From: a virus | Reading direction: 5' to 3' (one strand) | Virus record (IMG/VR): IMGVR_UViG_3300009436_000042 | Location: 1-43,179 of that record | Length of the DNA: 43,179 nucleotides | Part shown: positions 11,579 through 43,179 of the stretch, piece by piece | Layout: each line of letters begins with the position of its first letter | How positions within the stretch are numbered: position 1 is the first letter of the stretch | The notes under the pieces: model-generated | What the model saw: only the letters and a program-made list of their open reading frames with translations | Databases searched by the model: none | What the model was told of the DNA's origin: nothing | Made by a program: the position numbers and the translations under genes

Positions 11579-12778
11579 ATGGCAGTCACAAACGTACATT
11601 TAGAACACCTAGAAGACGAAATCATCAACAATGGTATTGCAGGTGGTCGTGCATCTATCAACTTCCTGAGAGAACTTAGGGACATGTTAAAAGGACATGC
11701 AACAGGTAGAGTCAAGATGACTGTTAAATGGGATGGTGCTCCTGCTATATTCTGCGGGCCACATCCCGAGACTAAAGAATTCTTTGTTGCAAAGAAATCC
11801 CTATTCAATAAAGAACCATTATTCTACACATCCGAACAACAAATCAAAGATGCACCCGAACTTAAGGGTAGTTTAGAAGAGAAGTTTTTAACATCATTTA
11901 AATACCTATCCAAGATGGGAATGAAAGAAATCCTACAGGGTGATTTGATGTACACTAACGACAAATCTAGTGAGACGATAGATGATAAGAAGTATCTCAC
12001 ATTTCACCCCAATACAATCTTATATGCAGTTCTTGAAGGTTCGAAACTTTATAATGAAATCAACTCAACGAAAATGGGTATCGTCTTCCACACAACTTAT
12101 TCAGGGTCTACTATAGAATCACTAAGTGCATCGTTTGGTGCAAATGCACCCAAGTCTACATCAGATGTTTGGACTGATGATGCAACATACAAGGATGTGA
12201 CTGGTTACGGAAACATGACTGCAAAGGAAACACTTCAGTTAACCAATGCACTTACTTCGACTGGTAAAAATTTCCATGGTATAACAAACAAAGACCTTAA
12301 GAAGTTTAATGATGTTCAAAATGTTCTCAACAGTAAAGGAGCTGCAGGTGCATCATACAAGACATACACTAATACACTTGTCCGTGCAGGTAAGTGGAAC
12401 CCTAACGGAAAGGACTACCTCACCCATGTAGAGAAATACTGGAAAGATAAGATAGTTGCAAAAGTTAAGATGCAGAAGACTAAAGACATCAAGATACAGA
12501 TTGGTAAGGATGTTATGAGAGACTTAAACTCCATCAAAGTGATGATTGATAACCTTGCAAAATTCCAAGGTGGGTTGATAGAGTCAAAATCCCTTATTGT
12601 TACAGCACTAAATAGAGTAAAGAGTATTGGAACCTTCGTGAAGGTAGATAACGGATTTAAAGTAGTTAATCCTGAAGGATATGTTGCAATCGACTCAGAC
12701 GGAAGTGCAGTTAAATTAGTTGACAGGATGGAATTCTCTATGAATAACTTCAACGCTGCAAAAGCATGGGACAAGTAA
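11579..12778 (+). CDS. DUF6267-like conserved phage protein, possible nucleotidyltransferase relative
   Basis: This 399-residue protein resembles a large conserved family of T4-like cyanophages and pelagiphages that I believe is DUF6267. Near residue 50 it carries K-W-D-G-A-P, then an AKKSLFN segment, ILQGDL near 118-123 and GIVFHT near 167-172. The K-x-D-G is reminiscent of motif I of DNA and RNA ligases, where the Lys is adenylated; later acidic and hydrophobic segments sit at roughly ligase-like distances. This is only suggestive. It opens the late block behind a late-type promoter, and its stop overlaps the next ATG (TAATG). A head-assembly role is inferred from position. Confidence 0.7.
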   Translation: MAVTNVHLEHLEDEIINNGIAGGRASINFLRELRDMLKGHATGRVKMTVKWDGAPAIFCGPHPETKEFFVAKKSLFNKEPLFYTSEQQIKDAPELKGSLEEKFLTSFKYLSKMGMKEILQGDLMYTNDKSSETIDDKKYLTFHPNTILYAVLEGSKLYNEINSTKMGIVFHTTYSGSTIESLSASFGANAPKSTSDVWTDDATYKDVTGYGNMTAKETLQLTNALTSTGKNFHGITNKDLKKFNDVQNVLNSKGAAGASYKTYTNTLVRAGKWNPNGKDYLTHVEKYWKDKIVAKVKMQKTKDIKIQIGKDVMRDLNSIKVMIDNLAKFQGGLIESKSLIVTALNRVKSIGTFVKVDNGFKVVNPEGYVAIDSDGSAVKLVDRMEFSMNNFNAAKAWDK

Positions 12779-14061
12779 TGAAAAGTTTTAAATCCATATT
12801 CGAAGCAAAAGAAAAGAGTGCAGTGTTTACTTTTGGTAGATTCAATCCACCTACAGTTGGACATGCAAAATTAATAGAAAAGTTAAAAAACTCTACCAGT
12901 GGTGGTTTTGAACCTCTAGTGTTCATGTCACACTCACAAGACTCCAAGAAGAATCCATTAGATTATAAAACTAAATGGAACTTTATGAATAAATTCTTCG
13001 GTAAGAAGGTAGGTATTGTGAACACTAAAGCACGACAAGTGTTCGAAATTGCAACTGCACTACAAGACCAAGGTTACAGTAAGGTTAGAATGGTGGTTGG
13101 TTCAGATAGAATTAAAGAATTTGAGATGTTACTCAACAAATACAATGGTGTGAAAGGAAAACATGGTTACTATAAGTTTGATTCAATTGATATTATATCT
13201 GCAGGGGAAAGAGACCCCGACTCCGATGATGTAAGTGGAATGTCTGCATCTAAAATGAGACAAGCTGCATCAGATGGGGATTATGATTCCTTTGAATCGG
13301 GTGTCCCCGATAAAAAACATGCAAAGACACTTTGGAAGGCAGTAAAAAAGGGAATGAACATCTCAGAGAGTACACTACCATCTTACATGCAAGAGGACTT
13401 ACTTAATGAAGGAGTCTATGACCAAGGAATCTTTAAAGCAGTCTTTCTAATGGGAGGCCCAGGCAGTGGTAAATCAGAAGTGGTTGATGGTCTTTCCCTT
13501 AAATCATTGGGACTTAAATTAGTTAATACAGATAATGCATTTGAGAAAGGTCTTAAGAAAGCAGGATTATCATTAGACCTATCTAAGAACGACCCTAAAG
13601 ACTATGACCCTATCCGTGCAAGAGCAAAGGTGACCACTAAAATAGGTATGGACTTGTATATCGGTAACAGACTAGGACTTATCTTTGACACTACTAGTGC
13701 AAACGACAGTAAGATTAAAGCATATAAGAAACATTTAGATGCACTTGGATATGAATCTAAGATGATTTATGTTCAAACATCACTAGAGAATGCACAAAAA
13801 CGAAATCAAATGAGACCTCGTAAAGTTCCACCCGAAATTGTTACTGGAGATTGGAACAAATCAAATGCAAATGCAATCAAATTGCAAAAGTTGTTTGGTA
13901 GAGACTTCATTAAGATAGAGAATGATGATACACTTGCATCACTTAAACAGAAGACAAATGGTCTTTATGGTAAACTCATGTCATGGACTACCATATTCCC
14001 TTCAAACAAACCTGCTCTCTCTTGGAAACAACGAGAGTTACATCTCAAAAAGACTAAATAG
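12778..14061 (+). CDS. Two-domain nucleotidyltransferase plus P-loop kinase (NadR-like layout)
   Basis: The N-terminal domain has GRFNPPTVGH (about residues 19-28), the nucleotide-binding GxFxPxHxGH-type motif of cytidylyl/adenylyltransferases, and SGMSASKMRQA (about 157-167), matching the ISSTxxR-type second motif. The C-terminal domain has a Walker A GGPGSGKS (about 223-230) and looks like a small-molecule kinase. The order resembles bacterial NadR, which makes NAD from nicotinamide riboside, but the substrate is not proven. The ATG at 12778 (TAATG overlap) is preferred over 12766. The first residues MKSFKSIFEAKE resemble the T4 capsid-targeting peptide, so the enzyme may be packaged in the head. 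Confidence 0.82.
   Translation: MKSFKSIFEAKEKSAVFTFGRFNPPTVGHAKLIEKLKNSTSGGFEPLVFMSHSQDSKKNPLDYKTKWNFMNKFFGKKVGIVNTKARQVFEIATALQDQGYSKVRMVVGSDRIKEFEMLLNKYNGVKGKHGYYKFDSIDIISAGERDPDSDDVSGMSASKMRQAASDGDYDSFESGVPDKKHAKTLWKAVKKGMNISESTLPSYMQEDLLNEGVYDQGIFKAVFLMGGPGSGKSEVVDGLSLKSLGLKLVNTDNAFEKGLKKAGLSLDLSKNDPKDYDPIRARAKVTTKIGMDLYIGNRLGLIFDTTSANDSKIKAYKKHLDALGYESKMIYVQTSLENAQKRNQMRPRKVPPEIVTGDWNKSNANAIKLQKLFGRDFIKIENDDTLASLKQKTNGLYGKLMSWTTIFPSNKPALSWKQRELHLKKTK
14053..14060 (+). promoter_or_regulatory. Late-type promoter ACTAAATA
   Basis: It ends 5 nt before the ATG at 14066, with no Shine-Dalgarno. The last bases overlap the TAG stop (14059-14061) of the upstream gene. Confidence 0.6.
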
Positions 14062-26056: not shown

Positions 26057-28341
26057 TGTCGGTTATTAAAGTTTTAAAGTCAGATGGGTCAAAGGTCGAT
26101 ATAGAACTCCACAAAATTCACAAGATGGTAGAGAAAGCCTGCAAAGATATTACAGGTGTTTCTGAATCTATGGTAGAGATGAATAGTGGACTACAGTTTT
26201 ATGATGGGATTACAACAAAAGATGTACAAAGTATACTAGTAAAATCTGCAAGTGATTTGATATCACTTGAAAATCCAAACTACCAATTTGTTGCAGCCAG
26301 ACTGTTACTCTTTGGAGTACAGAAAGTAGTGTTCAATACCAAATGGAAGGACAATGAAATCTATCCATCACTTGGTGATATTATTGATAGGAATATCAAA
26401 CAGGGTGTGTACGATAAAGACATTCTTAATCACTACTCAAAAGAACAGATTGCAGAGTGCAACAAATACATCAGACATAACCGTGACTTAACTTTTACCT
26501 ATGCAGGTCTACAACAGATTGTGGACAAATACCTAGTACAAGATAGAAGTAACGGAGAGATATTTGAAACACCTCAGTTCATGTATATGTTAATTGCAAT
26601 GACACTGTTTAAGTCATATGGAGAGAATAGAGTTGAATACATCAGAAAGTATTACGATGCAATATCCCAGTACAAGATTAACATTCCAACACCCATTATG
26701 GCAGGAGTGCGTACACCCTTACGACAGTTCGCATCATGTGTACTCGTTGATTCAGCAGATTCCCTCGATTCAATCTTTTCGAGTGACATGGCAATCGGAA
26801 GATATGTTGCACAAAGAGCTGGTATTGGAATTAATGCAGGAAGAATACGAGGACTTGGTTCAAAGATTCGTGGTGGAGAAGTACAACACACTGGTGTGAT
26901 ACCTTTCCTTAAGAAGTTTGAAGCAACAGTAAGAAGTTGTACTCAGAACGGAGTTAGAGGTGGAAGTGCAACAGTACATTTCCCAATATGGCACCAAGAG
27001 ATAAGAGACATCCTTGTACTCAAAAACAACAAGGGAACTGAAGATAATAGAGTAAGAAAACTGGATTACAGTATTCAGATATCAAAACTATTCTATGAAA
27101 GATTTATGAAGAATGAGGACATTACATTGTTCTCACCACATGATGCACCAAAGTTATATGATGCATTTGGAACCGATGAGTTTGACGAATTATACGAAAG
27201 GTATGAACGTAAAAGTAGTGTTCCAAAGACGAAGATATCTGCTAGAGAATTGTTTACGGACTTATTAAAAGAACGTGCAGAGACAGGACGAATCTATATT
27301 ATGAATATAGACCATTGCAATTCTCACAGTAGTTTTACAGACAAGATTAACATGAGTAATCTATGTCAAGAGATAACATTACCAACAGACCCAATCAGTC
27401 ACATTGATGGAGAAGGAGAGATTGCATTGTGTATTTTAAGTGCAATCAATGTGGGTATAGTCAAGATGGAAGAACTTAGTGAAATGTGCGACCTTGCAGT
27501 AAGAGGACTAGAAGAGTTAATTGATTACCAAGAGTATCCAGTTGTAGCTGCAGAAAGGTCAACACTTGCAAGAAGGTCATTAGGAATTGGATATATTGGT
27601 CTTGCACATTTCCTTGCAAAGAACAAGGTTAAGTATGATGACCCCGAAGCACATAGACTAGTGCATGAGTTATCAGAGAAGTTCCAGTACCATTTACTAT
27701 GTGCATCTAATCAGATTGCATCAGAGAAGGGTGCATGTGAATATTATGACAGAACTAAGTATGCACAAGGACTATTACCTATCGACCACTATAAGAAAGA
27801 GGTTGATGAAATCACACCTAATAAATTGTTGATGGATTGGGAAGTATTGAGAACTAGAATTAAGGTTCATGGACTAAGACACTCCACCCTTACTGCACAG
27901 ATGCCCTCTGAGAGTTCCTCAGTGGTCTCTAATGCAACGAATGGGATTGAACCACCAAGAGACTACCTTAGTGTTAAGAAGTCTAAGAAGGGTACATTGA
28001 AACAAGTAGTACCCCAGTATTCCATGTTAAAGAGTCATTACACTCTATTATGGGATATGCCAGATAATGATGGATATATCAAAGTAGCTGCAGTGATGCA
28101 GAAGTTCTTTGACCAAGCAATCAGTGGTAACTGGTCGTATAATCCTGAGAACTATGAAAACGGAGAAGTACCAGTATCAGTAATGGCGAAAGATATGTTG
28201 AACACTTACAAATATGGTTGGAAGACATCATATTACCAAAATACTATGGATGGGAAGACAGAGGATGTCGTTAAAGATGAACCCTTACCACAAGGTGAGA
28301 TTATAGATGATGGTGAAGACTGCGATGCCTGTGCGATATAA
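26053..28341 (+). CDS. nrdA: Ribonucleoside-diphosphate reductase large subunit, class Ia
   Basis: NrdA reduces ribonucleoside diphosphates to deoxyribonucleotides for phage DNA synthesis. The 762-residue protein has an N-terminal ATP-cone-like segment (residues 4-30). The active-site set is C229 (FASCVLVDS), N436, C438 and E440 (NMSNLCQE), matching E. coli C225, N437, C439 and E441. PSESSSVVSNATNGIEPP forms the phosphate-binding loop. The tail CDACAI carries the redox-relay cysteine pair, which glutaredoxin can reduce. ATG at 26053 or 26056 would both work; the first overlaps the primase stop. Confidence 0.96.
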   Translation: MMSVIKVLKSDGSKVDIELHKIHKMVEKACKDITGVSESMVEMNSGLQFYDGITTKDVQSILVKSASDLISLENPNYQFVAARLLLFGVQKVVFNTKWKDNEIYPSLGDIIDRNIKQGVYDKDILNHYSKEQIAECNKYIRHNRDLTFTYAGLQQIVDKYLVQDRSNGEIFETPQFMYMLIAMTLFKSYGENRVEYIRKYYDAISQYKINIPTPIMAGVRTPLRQFASCVLVDSADSLDSIFSSDMAIGRYVAQRAGIGINAGRIRGLGSKIRGGEVQHTGVIPFLKKFEATVRSCTQNGVRGGSATVHFPIWHQEIRDILVLKNNKGTEDNRVRKLDYSIQISKLFYERFMKNEDITLFSPHDAPKLYDAFGTDEFDELYERYERKSSVPKTKISARELFTDLLKERAETGRIYIMNIDHCNSHSSFTDKINMSNLCQEITLPTDPISHIDGEGEIALCILSAINVGIVKMEELSEMCDLAVRGLEELIDYQEYPVVAAERSTLARRSLGIGYIGLAHFLAKNKVKYDDPEAHRLVHELSEKFQYHLLCASNQIASEKGACEYYDRTKYAQGLLPIDHYKKEVDEITPNKLLMDWEVLRTRIKVHGLRHSTLTAQMPSESSSVVSNATNGIEPPRDYLSVKKSKKGTLKQVVPQYSMLKSHYTLLWDMPDNDGYIKVAAVMQKFFDQAISGNWSYNPENYENGEVPVSVMAKDMLNTYKYGWKTSYYQNTMDGKTEDVVKDEPLPQGEIIDDGEDCDACAI

Positions 28342-29248
28342 AATACAAACTATTAAACCTGCAGGTGACGATAACACCTTTTGTGTAAAGACCCCTAAGA
28401 ATGTAAAATTCAAAGGTGATATTAGTAAGACCACTTACGATTATATCAATAATGGATTTGCAGTTATAAGAAATGCAATCCCAAAAGAAATTATACAGTT
28501 TGCATTGGATACTTGGAAAACAATGGAACACCAACCCGAGTATAATAAATTCTTTGAACGTGAAGAGATAATTACCACAGAACATGTGCCTGATGAAAGT
28601 AAAAATAAATCCAATGGTAATCACAATCTACCTATGGGTGTTGCTATGCAAGAACTTATGTGGGGGATACTTAAAAAGAATTTTGATTTCGATTTAATCC
28701 CAACATACTCTTACACTAGGAAGTATGACAGAGGTGCATACCTAGGTGTACATTCAGATAGACCCGAATGTGAAGTATCAACTACTATATGTCTAGATTA
28801 TAAAACAGATGACAATAAACCATGGAAGATATGGGTAGACAATACTAAGAATTGGACAATGACCAACTGGAATGAGGATGCAAAAGCCGAGACACAAGGT
28901 ATTCCAATTAGAAAAAGAAAGAGTATTGCAATTGAATTAGAGCCAGGAGATATATTATTATATCAAGGCCCAAATGTTGCACACTGGAGAGATACACTTA
29001 TGGGTGAGTACTCTTATCACATGTTTATTCATTTCTATATGACTAATGGAAAAGTTGGACAAAATGCAGGAACGGATATGGCATACGACTGGATTGGTTC
29101 TAAATACCTTTCCACAGAACAAAGACCTGCTGAAAAATCAAAAAGACAAATAGATTGGCATAAAGCATATAGTATAACAAAAAACGAATCATCCGAAAAT
29201 AATTTTGATGAGTATACCACAGAGAAGATAGAAGATGACAGTATTTAA
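28307..29248 (+). CDS. 2OG-Fe(II) oxygenase-like protein inside the nrd operon
   Basis: The 313-residue product carries H149-x-D151 (VHSDRPE) followed by STTICLDY, a GDILLYQGP strand, a distal His (VAHWRD) and YHMFIHF. This is the 2-histidine-1-carboxylate iron site of Fe(II)/2-oxoglutarate oxygenases. The start at 28307 has AAGGTGAG eight nt upstream; ATG 28325 is an alternative that reduces overlap with nrdA. It lies between nrdA and nrdB and overlaps both, so it is co-translated with the reductase. T4 has other inserts here, but the reason is unknown. Substrate not known. Confidence 0.78.
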   Translation: MMVKTAMPVRYKIQTIKPAGDDNTFCVKTPKNVKFKGDISKTTYDYINNGFAVIRNAIPKEIIQFALDTWKTMEHQPEYNKFFEREEIITTEHVPDESKNKSNGNHNLPMGVAMQELMWGILKKNFDFDLIPTYSYTRKYDRGAYLGVHSDRPECEVSTTICLDYKTDDNKPWKIWVDNTKNWTMTNWNEDAKAETQGIPIRKRKSIAIELEPGDILLYQGPNVAHWRDTLMGEYSYHMFIHFYMTNGKVGQNAGTDMAYDWIGSKYLSTEQRPAEKSKRQIDWHKAYSITKNESSENNFDEYTTEKIEDDSI

Positions 29249-35033: not shown

Positions 35034-35846
35034 ATGAAAAGAGTGAAAAGTACTGTAGGTATTGACAACATCCCATCAATGAGGATGAGATACCAACCCA
35101 TAGAGATGAACACACTTTCGTTGTTTCCGATAAACATACATCGTGCTCAACTAAAATTACCTTTTGAAAATATCATTACAGATATTCGTAATGAAGTTGA
35201 AAGAATGTCAGAACTCCAAGGGGATGAAACCCGAAAGAACTACACTAATTACTTTGATGAGAATGTCCGACAGACATTTGCAGAGAAAGATTGGATGTCA
35301 TCTATTGTGACCCAACTTAAGGATACTTATGTTGAACTTATGGGTTCGGGATATGGTAACAAACAGGTGTATGATTGTACTAGAGATGAGATAGACTGTT
35401 TTATATGGGTCAATCGATATCAATCAGAACATAGTCATTCACGACACAATCATAAAGGGACAACAATGAGTGGAACTCTCTACATTAAAGTAGATGAAGA
35501 CACTTCTCCTATTATGTTTCAGAACCCCAATGAACCTAGAAATTTTATCTTTGATAACAGAGATGAAATGCATCGAAGACACCCTGAAGATATTGACCAT
35601 CAATGTCAACAAATTGAATACTTGGGTACTAGATTTTCAACTAATCAGATAATATATCATCCAGTTGCAGGTGAAGTGTTGATGTGGCCTTCGTGGTTGG
35701 AACATGAAGTACCAAAAGGTGAACATGACGATGACTATGAAAGGATATCCATATCATTTAATTTGACACATACAAAAAGGTTTAAAGACAACTCACCCCC
35801 TTTTAACTATAAACAAATACAACCATTAGGGGACAGTAATGGGTAA
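35034..35846 (+). CDS. 2OG-Fe(II) oxygenase-like protein, 270 aa
   Basis: The core reads VNRYQSEHSHSRHNHKG near 127-142, SGTLYIKV near 146, PIMFQNP near 160, then PVAGEVLMWPSWLEHEVPK and ERISISFNL. This fits a family of putative 2OG-Fe(II) oxygenases with paired His (H138, H140), a distal His in LEHEV and an Arg for the co-substrate. The substrate is not known. It overlaps the next oxygenase-like gene by 8 nt, so the two are made together. Confidence 0.76.
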   Translation: MKRVKSTVGIDNIPSMRMRYQPIEMNTLSLFPINIHRAQLKLPFENIITDIRNEVERMSELQGDETRKNYTNYFDENVRQTFAEKDWMSSIVTQLKDTYVELMGSGYGNKQVYDCTRDEIDCFIWVNRYQSEHSHSRHNHKGTTMSGTLYIKVDEDTSPIMFQNPNEPRNFIFDNRDEMHRRHPEDIDHQCQQIEYLGTRFSTNQIIYHPVAGEVLMWPSWLEHEVPKGEHDDDYERISISFNLTHTKRFKDNSPPFNYKQIQPLGDSNG

Positions 35847-36525
35847 ATCTTTTGATAACGACTCTTTATTTGAACTTAGTGATGTATTGACCCCAGTCTA
35901 TGATGATGGTGTTATTACAATCAAAGACTACTATAAGAATCCCGATGCAATCTATGAATGGTTGCAAGAACAAGACTATCCATTATGGAAGTACAATTCC
36001 GAACTTGAAACAGGTAAGAATTCGGTCGATTATAACGACTGCAGACTTATCCATAACATAGGACACCCAACGAGAAAATACTATAATAATCATAACAGAT
36101 TGTTAAATATTTGTCGTAGGTACTGGTGGAAGGGGCAGTACAATTGGGACACAGTGTATGAGTTTAATTGTTTTCAATCAAAGACAATTAATGACACTAC
36201 ACTACAACACTACCCCCACATAGACTCTAAACTAGAGTGTCATGACTCCGAATCGGTCTTGAACAAGTTAGTATACTTGGACAAGGAAGGTGATGGTGGA
36301 ACGGCTGTCTATGCAGGAGACTGGATTACAAATAATGAACAGATGAATCTGATGTATCCAGTAGAAGAGAGGTTTAAAAAGGTTAAGGTAATCCCTAATC
36401 AATTCAATACATGTGTTATCTTTGCAGGTAACAAACTACATGGTGCGTGGATTGATGATTACGATAACTATAAGGATGACAAGTGGAGATTCACTCAAGT
36501 CACCTTTTATAAACCACAATTATAA
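35839..36525 (+). CDS. 2OG-Fe(II) oxygenase-like protein (DUF6445 type), 228 aa
   Basis: Features include HYPHIDSKL with H-x-D, NKLVYLDKEGDGGTAVY, VIPNQFNTCVIFAGNKLHGAW with the distal His, and RFTQVTFY with the Arg. These match the iron and co-substrate sites of the double-stranded beta helix. It resembles the gene at 8707-9360 in motif order, although the sequences differ. It is coupled to the previous oxygenase gene. Confidence 0.76.
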   Translation: MGKSFDNDSLFELSDVLTPVYDDGVITIKDYYKNPDAIYEWLQEQDYPLWKYNSELETGKNSVDYNDCRLIHNIGHPTRKYYNNHNRLLNICRRYWWKGQYNWDTVYEFNCFQSKTINDTTLQHYPHIDSKLECHDSESVLNKLVYLDKEGDGGTAVYAGDWITNNEQMNLMYPVEERFKKVKVIPNQFNTCVIFAGNKLHGAWIDDYDNYKDDKWRFTQVTFYKPQL

Positions 36526-39622: not shown

Positions 39623-40168
39623 ATGATATATGAAGGACAAACCATCCCATCCGTATCACTCGTTCAGAGAGATGGAATCACGGGGACATTCACAGAAGTA
39701 ACAACAGATGAACTCTTTAAAGATAAGAGAGTTATTCTATTTGCATTGCCTGGTGCATTCACCCCAACATGTTCAACAAAACAATTACCTGCATACGATA
39801 AGAAGTATCGTTCACTTACTGCAAAGAAGAATAACATAGACGAGGTCTACTGTTTATCAGTCAACGATGGATTCGTAATGAATGCATGGTTCGAATCTTT
39901 GGGTATTAAGAATGTCAAACCTCTTGCAGATGGCTCATTAGAGTTCACTGCATCGGTTGGTGCAAAAGTTCAGAAGGACAATGTAGGATTTGGTTCAAGG
40001 TCGTGGAGATACTCATGTGTCATCAACGATGGTGTTGTGGAGAAAGTCTTCAGTGAAGAAGGATTCGGTAACAATGCAGGAACAGACCCATTTGAAGTAT
40101 CTGATGCACAAACTATGTTAGATTACATTAGTGAAGCTATCTCACTCAGATTAAAGGAACAAGTGTAA
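39623..40168 (+). CDS. Peroxiredoxin (Prx5-type thiol peroxidase), 181 aa
   Basis: Peroxiredoxins reduce peroxides with a peroxidatic cysteine, here C50 in PGAFTPTC (P-x-x-x-T-x-x-C). The thioredoxin-fold core, YCLSVNDGFVMNAWF and the C-terminal FGSRSWRYS region match the Prx5/AhpE-like group. The glutaredoxin at 30569 could supply electrons, as in glutathione-dependent Prx5. Two promoters, late and sigma70-like, precede it, so it may be made throughout infection. It probably protects against oxidative stress. Confidence 0.9.
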   Translation: MIYEGQTIPSVSLVQRDGITGTFTEVTTDELFKDKRVILFALPGAFTPTCSTKQLPAYDKKYRSLTAKKNNIDEVYCLSVNDGFVMNAWFESLGIKNVKPLADGSLEFTASVGAKVQKDNVGFGSRSWRYSCVINDGVVEKVFSEEGFGNNAGTDPFEVSDAQTMLDYISEAISLRLKEQV

Positions 40169-40575: not shown

Positions 40576-41505
40576 ATGTCAGAATCAATACCTATTGTTG
40601 AAGTTGACCAGTATCAATTCTTAGAGCATCGCAGACAACAAGAAACCAATCACTGGAACAAACTAGACAATCAAGACCTAACACCCCTCGACTCCATCCT
40701 CACGATAGAGATTAACACTACAGAGTTGTGTAACAGGACATGTGTCTTTTGTCCACGACATGACCCAAAGGTCTACGACAATAGAAATCTACACCTTACA
40801 GTCAAGGGTGCGACAATTATTGCAGAAGAGTTAAAACGGTCAGACTATAGAGGTAAGATATCCTTCAGTGGATTCGGTGAGAACCTACTCAACCCATGGT
40901 TCGTTAAGATTGTTCATGCAGTAAGAAAAGAACTACCTACCAATGTCATCGAGTGCAACACTAATGGTGACAAACTAACACCCCAATACGCAAAAGACCT
41001 ATTCAATGCAGGTATGACCAATATCTACATCAACCTCTATGATGGGCCTGAACAGGTAGAACCCTTTGATGCAATCATGCAAGAAGCAGGGATAGCACCC
41101 GAAACACAATATAAATATAGAGTACACTATGGAAGTGCAGAACAACATGGATTGTTACTGAACAACAGAAGTGGTGTAGTAGACTGGATTGGTATAGAAG
41201 ACTCATCCATAGAGAAACTTAAGGGTAAACCCTGTTATTATCCGTTCTATAAGATGTTTGTAGATTGGAATGGTGATTGTATCCTATGTTGTAATGACTG
41301 GGACAGGACACAAATCGTAGGTAACCTCATGACACAGACATTACATGATGTATGGTTCGGTAAACCTATGACCAAGATACGAAACAGATTGAGAAAGGGA
41401 AATAGGAACGGAATTCCATGTAACAAGTGTAGTGTAGATGGTACACTATTCGGTAAACCCTCATACGACTTAATCAACGAATACGAAGAAAAGAAAGGAC
41501 TATGA
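40576..41505 (+). CDS. Radical SAM/SPASM-domain protein, 309 aa
   Basis: C52-x3-C56-x2-C59 (CNRTCVFC) binds the 4Fe-4S cluster that cleaves S-adenosylmethionine; GFGENLL and ECNTNGD are the usual barrel motifs. The C-terminal cysteines (GKPC near 219, DCILCCND near 234, PCNKC near 285) form a SPASM/twitch auxiliary cluster region, with GNLMTQTLHDVWFG typical of SPASM enzymes. Such enzymes modify peptides, proteins or small molecules. It starts a run with an unknown, a possible 2OG oxygenase and another unknown, possibly one pathway. Confidence 0.86.
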   Translation: MSESIPIVEVDQYQFLEHRRQQETNHWNKLDNQDLTPLDSILTIEINTTELCNRTCVFCPRHDPKVYDNRNLHLTVKGATIIAEELKRSDYRGKISFSGFGENLLNPWFVKIVHAVRKELPTNVIECNTNGDKLTPQYAKDLFNAGMTNIYINLYDGPEQVEPFDAIMQEAGIAPETQYKYRVHYGSAEQHGLLLNNRSGVVDWIGIEDSSIEKLKGKPCYYPFYKMFVDWNGDCILCCNDWDRTQIVGNLMTQTLHDVWFGKPMTKIRNRLRKGNRNGIPCNKCSVDGTLFGKPSYDLINEYEEKKGL

Positions 41506-41906
41506 CTAAAGTGAAAATGCTGGACGACATGCTGATTCAATTGGCAAAAAACCTGACTGCCCATGAAATGACAGTCGAAGAATATAAACGACATGTGGAG
41601 TTAAATAACATGAAACTTAAGACATCCATCAAGTATCCCGATAGGTTTGAGACCATCGATGTAAGAATAGAACTACCTGTTACACTAGACAAGACTGATA
41701 ATGGTATACACTCCTTTGAGGACATTCGAAGTATCGTATTAGAATACGTTAAGAGTAAAGACTTCAATTACACCTCAACCATCGACCCCAATCCCGATTA
41801 CTGGAAAGAGTTTGAAGCATTCAAAGAAGACGGAACTAAAATTGGTGTTCTTAAACACGATGACGGCCATATGATACACAGACCCGAAGACTATGAAGAG
41901 AATTAA
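41502..41906 (+). CDS. Hypothetical protein, 134 aa
   Basis: ATGA overlap with the radical SAM gene. A helical N-terminus (MLDDMLIQLAKNLTAHEMTVEEYKRH in two helices) is followed by a beta-rich domain and an acidic tail. No cysteine-rich leader or cleavage motif of a modified peptide is evident, yet tight coupling means it could be a partner or substrate of the radical SAM enzyme. Confidence 0.66.
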   Translation: MTKVKMLDDMLIQLAKNLTAHEMTVEEYKRHVELNNMKLKTSIKYPDRFETIDVRIELPVTLDKTDNGIHSFEDIRSIVLEYVKSKDFNYTSTIDPNPDYWKEFEAFKEDGTKIGVLKHDDGHMIHRPEDYEEN

Positions 41907-42612
41907 CCTTCCACAACATAAGAGTTTGGTAAGGATACATCCCCCCGAGAAATACTGTATGGGACTGAAAGAGAAGATGTTCTCAGCTCATGACCAATAT
42001 AACCTAGATAACATGGTACCTTACCATCAAGTGGTTGAACACTTCCTATCCAAAGACGAGTGTGAGACGATATGTGCAGTCATAGACGACAACACAGAAG
42101 ACCTCATGAAGGAAGACTATCTCCCCGAATCTGATGAATCAGACCACGAAGGGTTAACAGGTAAGTTCATGTATTACAACCTACTCAATTTATTACCCGA
42201 CACACTTAGTATAGACCTACAACAACGAGTGTTTAATCTAGAACTGTTTAAAGACATGGACGAGGTATGGATTCAGTGTTGGGCTAACAAATCCCCACAA
42301 GGTACAGGTATTACAAAACATTTCCATGGTATGGTTGGTCAGGGTAAAACAACAGGTCAAGCCTTCGCATGTTCATCCTTCCTACAAGGTCACACAGAGT
42401 CTTACACACACTTTGAATCCGACCAAGGGTACATACAGGTACGCAACGAGGTAGGACACCTACACATAGTAGACGAGTATCTCATGCATGAAGTCAAACA
42501 GAATATACACACGACACCGAGGTATTCCTTAGCCATGGATGTTCATATAAATAAACCCAAGGACTTAATAAACTACGACAAGAGGATACTCCATGCCAAT
42601 CGAATTCACTAA
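41893..42612 (+). CDS. Possible 2OG-Fe(II) oxygenase-like protein, 239 aa
   Basis: Candidate iron ligands lie in GITKHFHGM near 139-147; HTESYTHF follows, then GHLHIVDEYLMHEVKQNIHTTPRYSLAMDVHI near 196-227, with a distal His and an Arg in the expected order. The motif match is weaker than for the other five oxygenase-like genes. It overlaps the previous gene by 14 nt and the next by 20 nt. Confidence 0.62.
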   Translation: MKRINLPQHKSLVRIHPPEKYCMGLKEKMFSAHDQYNLDNMVPYHQVVEHFLSKDECETICAVIDDNTEDLMKEDYLPESDESDHEGLTGKFMYYNLLNLLPDTLSIDLQQRVFNLELFKDMDEVWIQCWANKSPQGTGITKHFHGMVGQGKTTGQAFACSSFLQGHTESYTHFESDQGYIQVRNEVGHLHIVDEYLMHEVKQNIHTTPRYSLAMDVHINKPKDLINYDKRILHANRIH

Positions 42613-43141
42613 CACAACACCAAAGATACTTATCTACACGGACTCAGACATGGGAGACCAATTAGTAGACCATTTGATGATGCGTGTCGCAATCCTTGAC
42701 CACCTATTAGACGGCCTCGACCAACAATGGGAAGACGACCAAATAGAATGGGTCACAGGTACTATAAAAGAAGAGAAGGACAAATACGATGTCTTCTTCT
42801 GTCTAGGAGAGAAGTCACTCTATCCATACCTAGGTGTATCAGACCAAATTGCAAAACGTACATTCTACATTGACGTAGAAGGAACCATGGACTTGACAGA
42901 ACTAGGTATCATGAATGCAGAACCTATTCAAGACAATACTGTAGAAGAACTATGGGATAGGTGTTGTATTGGTGCAGTAGAACTTCGTGAGATACCTACA
43001 ACGGAGGTGGATACCAGTGAAGAGGTCATAGAGAAAGAACTTGATGACCTTTTAAAGACCAATCCTCTCGGTGAACTACACTTAGATGCATCCGACATGT
43101 ACGATGACCTAGTGAAAGAAGACGACAAACCTAATTCCTAA
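42593..43141 (+). CDS. Hypothetical protein, 182 aa
   Basis: Opens with a Rossmann-like strand-turn (KILIYTDSDMGDQLVDH) and later YDVFFCLGEKSLYPYLG; the C-terminal third is a highly acidic helical tail (EEVIEKELDDLLK). The motifs loosely resemble phosphatase or glycosyltransferase-type Rossmann folds, but none is clear. It is coupled to the oxygenase-like gene. Only 38 nt remain to the window edge. Confidence 0.66.
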   Translation: MPIEFTNTTPKILIYTDSDMGDQLVDHLMMRVAILDHLLDGLDQQWEDDQIEWVTGTIKEEKDKYDVFFCLGEKSLYPYLGVSDQIAKRTFYIDVEGTMDLTELGIMNAEPIQDNTVEELWDRCCIGAVELREIPTTEVDTSEEVIEKELDDLLKTNPLGELHLDASDMYDDLVKEDDKPNS

Positions 43142-43179
43142 GAAGAAACCAAAGATACCCCTCAAAGGGGGTGACGAGT

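Follow-up and report, generated by a model that had tools for sequence, protein, structure and literature searches.

What do the four overlapping genes at the end of this phage contig make or modify, and do they act together at all? The window (the whole stretch of DNA that was analyzed) is the 43,179-base virus record IMGVR_UViG_3300009436_000042, positions 1 to 43,179. It encodes a T4-type DNA polymerase, helicase, primase and ribonucleotide reductase, and its polymerase is at most about 46% identical to those of cultured phages, the best matches being cyanophages. A sequence-only reading of this DNA had singled out its last four genes as a coupled cluster, in which a radical SAM (rSAM) enzyme with a SPASM-type tail and a possible oxygenase would carry out an undescribed modification of a peptide or protein.

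Layout of the cluster

The head-to-tail arrangement is as that reading described it. The four ORFs, all on the plus strand, are located at 40576-41505 (309 aa), 41502-41906 (134 aa), 41893-42612 (239 aa) and 42593-43141 (182 aa), and successive ORFs overlap by 4, 14 and 20 nt. The overlap alone says little, because 29 of the 63 adjacent plus-strand ORF pairs of the window overlap (46%) and there are five further runs of overlapping ORFs, with 3-6 ORFs each. Between the last stop codon and the contig end 38 nt are left, and no start of an SDR-like ORF was found in the last 100 nt of the window. Directly 3' of the last gene there is an ACCCC/GGGGT hairpin (43156-43173, plus strand; predicted fold -9.6 kcal/mol) that could weakly hint at a terminator and at the end of the unit; the hint is weak because its z value by shuffling is only -0.79 and the contig stops before any T-run could show. 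The only near-identical contig (L002) breaks off within the 134-aa gene.

A BtrN-like radical SAM enzyme

The first gene (40576-41505, plus strand) was recognized as a rSAM gene with a SPASM-type tail by the sequence-only reading, and this was borne out: the 309-aa protein matches Radical_SAM (PF04055, 1.5e-11) and SPASM (PF13186, 2.4e-11), both above the curated cut-offs. Its CX3CX2C signature, C52xxxC56xxC59 (CNRTCVFC, 40729-40752, plus strand), is invariant in the phage and bacterial homologs and in BtrN, and its predicted structure matches the barrel fold of the superfamily. When these homologs were aligned together with a Campylobacter phage protein and BtrN, only seven cysteines were invariant, the three of the RS motif and C220, C238, C282 and C285 (41233-41430, plus strand). 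The latter align with the cysteines of BtrN in the pattern of a twitch domain, which holds a single auxiliary cluster. Despite the PF13186 match, the classical seven-cysteine C-terminal SPASM motif, with its two auxiliary clusters, is absent from the protein.

The nearest solved relative by sequence is BtrN (PDB 4M7T), matched near full length (phmmer E 1.7e-18; family profile 1.6e-29). This 2-deoxy-scyllo-inosamine dehydrogenase of butirosin biosynthesis is a two-electron oxidase with a four-Cys auxiliary cluster (PMC9012708). Both proteins have the CX3CX2C motif, the four auxiliary cysteines and an Asn-Arg pair, but their identity is about 26% and the window gene is phage-borne, with no deoxystreptamine pathway genes around it. 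Foldseek searches with the AF2 model, which is of moderate quality (pLDDT 71) and of low confidence around the auxiliary-cluster region, also placed BtrN first (E 3.4e-10), ahead of SpeY (1.5e-6) and then MoaA, viperins and others. SpeY (PDB 7WZV), an alcohol dehydrogenase with a twitch domain, is thus the second-best fold family, although only about half of the chain could be aligned (138-151 columns, TM 0.33-0.35). The BtrN order of the four cysteines and the overall predicted fold point to a radical alcohol dehydrogenase of the BtrN/SpeY twitch type.

The substrate is another matter. We take Tyr90, Arg152 and Glu189 to be the substrate contacts of BtrN. In the alignment, the conserved Asn-Arg of the window protein occupies the position of BtrN Asn151-Arg152, and Arg152 corresponds to the invariant R198, while Tyr90 and Glu189 are replaced by Asn128 and Asn240, a set of contacts different from that of BtrN proper (the 2-DOIA dehydrogenase). 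Arg152 being kept and the other two positions changed, the chemistry has probably been retained and the substrate altered; as two of the contact positions differ, 2-deoxy-scyllo-inosamine is probably not what the enzyme acts on.

The scan of viral contigs gave relatives of this rSAM in 308 IMG/VR stretches, with identities of 65-74% among the best 80 of the 308 when the near-identical contig is set aside. In cultured phages no relative exceeds about 31% identity. The family is widespread and highly conserved in uncultured marine phages. In the tree the phage proteins form one group (95/82), in which the window protein clusters with those of L003, L004 and L005 (100/99); the deeper joins are unsure because some branches are long. 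Homologs are rare in bacteria: among the genomes sampled they occur in 4 of 162 for the order and in 4 of 385 for the class, with the seed genomes included in both counts.

Among cultured phages, Campylobacter phages vB_CjeM_WX1 and CP20 carry a BtrN-like rSAM gene in an overlapping cluster with an amidinotransferase gene, and with an aminotransferase gene nearby; it is about 31% identical to the window protein and has other neighbours. In vB_CjeM_WX1 (L083, 1237-8243) the genes round it include several annotated as rSAM or GTP-cyclase, together with the amidinotransferase and the aminotransferase, a set that resembles an aminocyclitol pathway.

Partner genes in phages and bacteria

We analyzed the neighbours of 66 distinct phage rSAM proteins whose genes are followed by 700 bases or more. 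A short SDR of one family (F2) is found at most four genes downstream of the rSAM in 60 of them and directly adjacent in 46, and in the adjacent cases its start falls inside the rSAM frame. The F2 proteins conserve S87, Y100 and K104 and match an NCBIfam SDR model (7.9e-6) and the PDB oxidoreductase 3nyw (2.2e-6); no match to them was found in the cultured-phage collection. The six rSAMs without F2 are those of the window, L003, L004, L007, L005 and L173, the last of these a short contig with only 845 bases downstream of the rSAM. In the window, which ends at 43179, F2 is missing from the four genes downstream of the rSAM and no ORF anywhere matches it. The 182-aa protein was considered as a degenerate SDR in the F2 position and rejected, as it matches no SDR profile.

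The space between rSAM and F2 can hold additional genes, for an oxygenase-like protein with the label phrog_274, for the oxygenase family of the window, for FkbM methyltransferases, or for a kinase with a cytidylyltransferase. The first of these (F54; L037, L042, L045 and L057), often found in this position, bears the PHROG label DNA endonuclease V, for which no Pfam support was found; its HTD...H pattern, like that of 2OG oxygenases, suggests an oxygenase rather than a T4-type endonuclease V. Away from the cluster, a window protein encoded at 12766-14061 fuses cytidylyltransferase-like and AAA_33/zeta-type kinase domains that are similar to the kinase and the nucleotidyltransferase found together as an insertion in some rSAM-SDR units.

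The possible oxygenase that had been proposed as coupled to the rSAM is encoded by the third gene (41893-42612, plus strand). Its 239-aa product matches phrog_81 (2e-10) and, below threshold, 2OG-FeII_Oxy_5 (PF13759, 1.3e-5, 26.0 bits against a cut-off of 27). The metal-binding histidines and the distal arginine, H143xH145, H199 and R210, align with those of its homologs, with HxH replacing HxD, and we consider it a probable 2OG-Fe(II) oxygenase. Close relatives of it occur near a rSAM in L057, in the order rSAM, F54, oxygenase, F2, and in L072. In L036 a more distant relative precedes the rSAM by about 7 kb, and another is found in cyanophage S-SCSM1 with no rSAM nearby. A second 2OG oxygenase gene of the window (phrog_81), at 35034-36525, overlaps a DUF6445/phrog_1644 gene.

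The other two genes are orphans. The 134-aa protein (41502-41906, plus strand) has no Pfam, PHROG or NCBIfam match and no match among phage records, and its only copy is a partial one in L002. The acidic 182-aa protein (42593-43141, plus strand) has no match in the same three family collections or among the viral contigs, a marginal one in INPHARED (E 0.3) and an uninformative AF2 model (pLDDT 37). For these two proteins and the oxygenase together, the viral contigs and phage records gave no useful relatives beyond L002, L057 and L072. Neither orphan is present in the other rSAM loci examined. The four-gene cluster is private to this phage and its order does not recur among relatives. What is conserved, of the gene order that the earlier reading had asked to be sought in other phages, is the rSAM-oxygenase neighbourhood of L057 and L072 and the very widely kept order of rSAM and reductase. 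Members of the cluster are also found apart: the rSAM usually occurs without the oxygenase and there are oxygenase relatives without a rSAM. Against the refuting condition set by the earlier reading, a gene order not conserved in any relative or members found independently, the outcome is therefore mixed.

The wider surroundings differ among phages. In the main lineage the rSAM-SDR pair adjoins an RNase H/exonuclease-like gene (phrog_107), with no glycan cluster. In the closest phage relatives (L003, L004 and L007) the genes surrounding the rSAM encode GT8- and GT25-like glycosyltransferases, methyltransferases and a cytidylyltransferase. In the marine phage contig L005 (13-2144) genes for a TET-associated glycosyltransferase, a heme oxygenase and a bilin reductase directly precede it.

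The seven bacterial homologs with readable context all belong to surface-glycan or nonulosonate gene clusters. The accompanying genes include NeuB and a CMP-sugar synthetase (L105), KdsB-like and epimerase genes (L098), DAHP-synthase/NeuB-like and cytidylyltransferase genes (L099), and a GmhA-type SIS with a HldE-type kinase/nucleotidyltransferase (L089); for L106, a contig of only 4 kb, the glycan assignment rests on likeness to L105. In six of the seven an oxidoreductase is beside the rSAM, either Gfo/Idh/MocA (L089, L090, L105, L106 and L099) or an SDR whose gene overlaps it (L098), and in the seventh (L100) the neighbours are methyltransferases. No orthology could be detected between the phage F2 and the SDR partner in bacteria, so that a function common to both sets of partners is something we infer. 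The cluster of L099 (156-8194) combines AroE-like, enolase-like and DAHP-synthase genes with the rSAM, two Gfo/Idh/MocA-like genes and a CMP-sugar synthetase, which suggests an unusual carbocyclic or nonulosonate route.

A proposed sugar-oxidising module and its alternatives

We give somewhat better than even chances to a module that oxidises sugars or cyclitols, centred on a phage-adapted twitch rSAM of the BtrN/SpeY type and probably serving glycan editing. The 5'-deoxyadenosyl radical would remove a hydrogen from a hydroxyl-bearing carbon of the substrate (a sugar, a nonulosonate or a cyclitol); the second electron would pass to the auxiliary cluster and a ketone would result, that is, a two-electron alcohol oxidation. 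In most relatives the adjacent NAD(P)-dependent SDR (phages) or Gfo/Idh/MocA or SDR (bacteria) would then reduce this ketone, either with a change of stereochemistry or as the last step of a deoxygenation. In the window the 2OG-Fe(II) oxygenase would fill this position, the SDR being missing from the cluster; with an oxygenase in place of the SDR, the product would probably be further oxidised or hydroxylated. The 134-aa and 182-aa products may be accessory proteins. The purpose would most likely be the editing of glycans during infection, either of the host surface or of the virion. Motifs, homology, predicted fold and gene order speak for such a module, and from them we infer its reaction, its class of substrate, the role of the oxygenase and the glycan-editing purpose. 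Its main weakness is that in the main phage lineage the pair adjoins the RNase H/exonuclease-like gene instead of a glycan locus, together with the lack of a reductase in the window cluster.

The expectation of a peptide or protein substrate did not hold. For the rSAM to modify one of the two orphans, with a second step by the oxygenase, in a RiPP-like or protein-maturation pathway, we see very little chance. The SPASM Pfam match, the coupled small ORFs with no assigned role and the weak NCBIfam matches to several peptide-maturase models would agree with it, but the latter reach at best 45-52 bits against cut-offs of 250-400, the cysteine pattern is that of a single auxiliary cluster, and the nearest solved relatives are BtrN and SpeY rather than RiPP maturases. 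Moreover, no precursor or peptide-recognition domain could be recognized, there is no sign that the 134-aa or the 182-aa protein is a substrate or a carrier, and the other rSAM loci examined do without them. What stands of the proposed undescribed pathway is a likely modification or biosynthetic step that is absent from the literature searched. Slightly less remote is an action on phage DNA, dNTPs or tRNA, which we regard as quite unlikely. It would account for the RNase H/exonuclease-like gene of the main lineage, the TET-associated glycosyltransferase upstream of the rSAM in L005 and the kinase and nucleotidyltransferase genes of some copies; yet such a pair could equally serve NAD salvage, the bacterial homologs with context are found in surface glycan loci and the nearest structures act on cyclitols or sugars.

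Closer to the preferred module, the rSAM could be an epimerase or a dehydratase acting on the same kind of substrates, with a net inversion (as in HygY and NeoN) or an elimination of water, after which the partner would carry out a reduction (as in AprD4/AprD3). This is unlikely in our judgement, but less so than the previous two readings. Such activities are indeed known among radical SAM enzymes, the epimerases HygY and NeoN and the dehydratase AprD4, which with the NADPH-dependent reductase AprD3 carries out the C3' deoxygenation of apramycin (PMC5461906), and a NAD(P) reductase recurs beside the phage and bacterial genes. By description, the phage rSAM-SDR pair may be likened to AprD4/AprD3, with the differences that AprD4 is a dehydratase and that the rSAM of the window has no reductase beside it. 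Against an epimerase or a dehydratase, no donor cysteine could be assigned and the closest protein by sequence and fold is the dehydrogenase BtrN. The alternative that we take most seriously, while holding it to be rather improbable, is that four unrelated accessory genes stand side by side in a compact phage genome, in which case the rSAM may still be a sugar oxidase. The frequent ORF overlap throughout the window, the unique four-gene order and the separate occurrence of its members are in keeping with it, whereas the rSAM-oxygenase pairs of L057 and L072 and the strongly kept rSAM-SDR order suggest a functionally structured position.

Radical SAM genes are a variable cargo of marine T4-like phages, as in the rSAM cassettes of pelagimyophage host-recognition clusters (PMC7029224) and the rSAM-rich genomes of marine T4-like phages (PMC5332604), to go by the accessible portions of both papers, which give no enzyme class, partner gene or reaction for these genes. 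The literature searched held no paper joining phage, radical SAM and BtrN, and none on rSAM in nonulosonate pathways. If the oxidising module is correct, a very common and apparently uncharacterised family of ocean phages would be a BtrN-type sugar oxidase with a dedicated reductase, and the pelagimyophage cassettes would gain a testable reaction. This would also connect phage genomes with the radical-based epimerisation or deoxygenation of sugars at the surface, by which superinfection could plausibly be excluded, or phage receptors altered, in abundant marine bacteria. A small group of enzymes, familiar chiefly from the aminoglycoside antibiotics, would gain a virus-borne branch. The more specific proposal that this module of marine T4-like phages (a rSAM alcohol oxidase with a reductase or an oxygenase) rewrites a host or virion glycan, and that the oxygenase-for-reductase variant of this phage leads to a different sugar product, is offered as a tentative and rather doubtful extension.

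Two further genes of the window deserve mention. A peroxiredoxin gene (39623-40168; PF08534, phrog_2281) is located just upstream of the cluster, and a 50% identical copy is found about 1.9 kb downstream of the rSAM in L019. A ferrochelatase-like gene (28307-29248; phrog_2954, 7.7e-32) overlaps the genes of both ribonucleotide reductase subunits.
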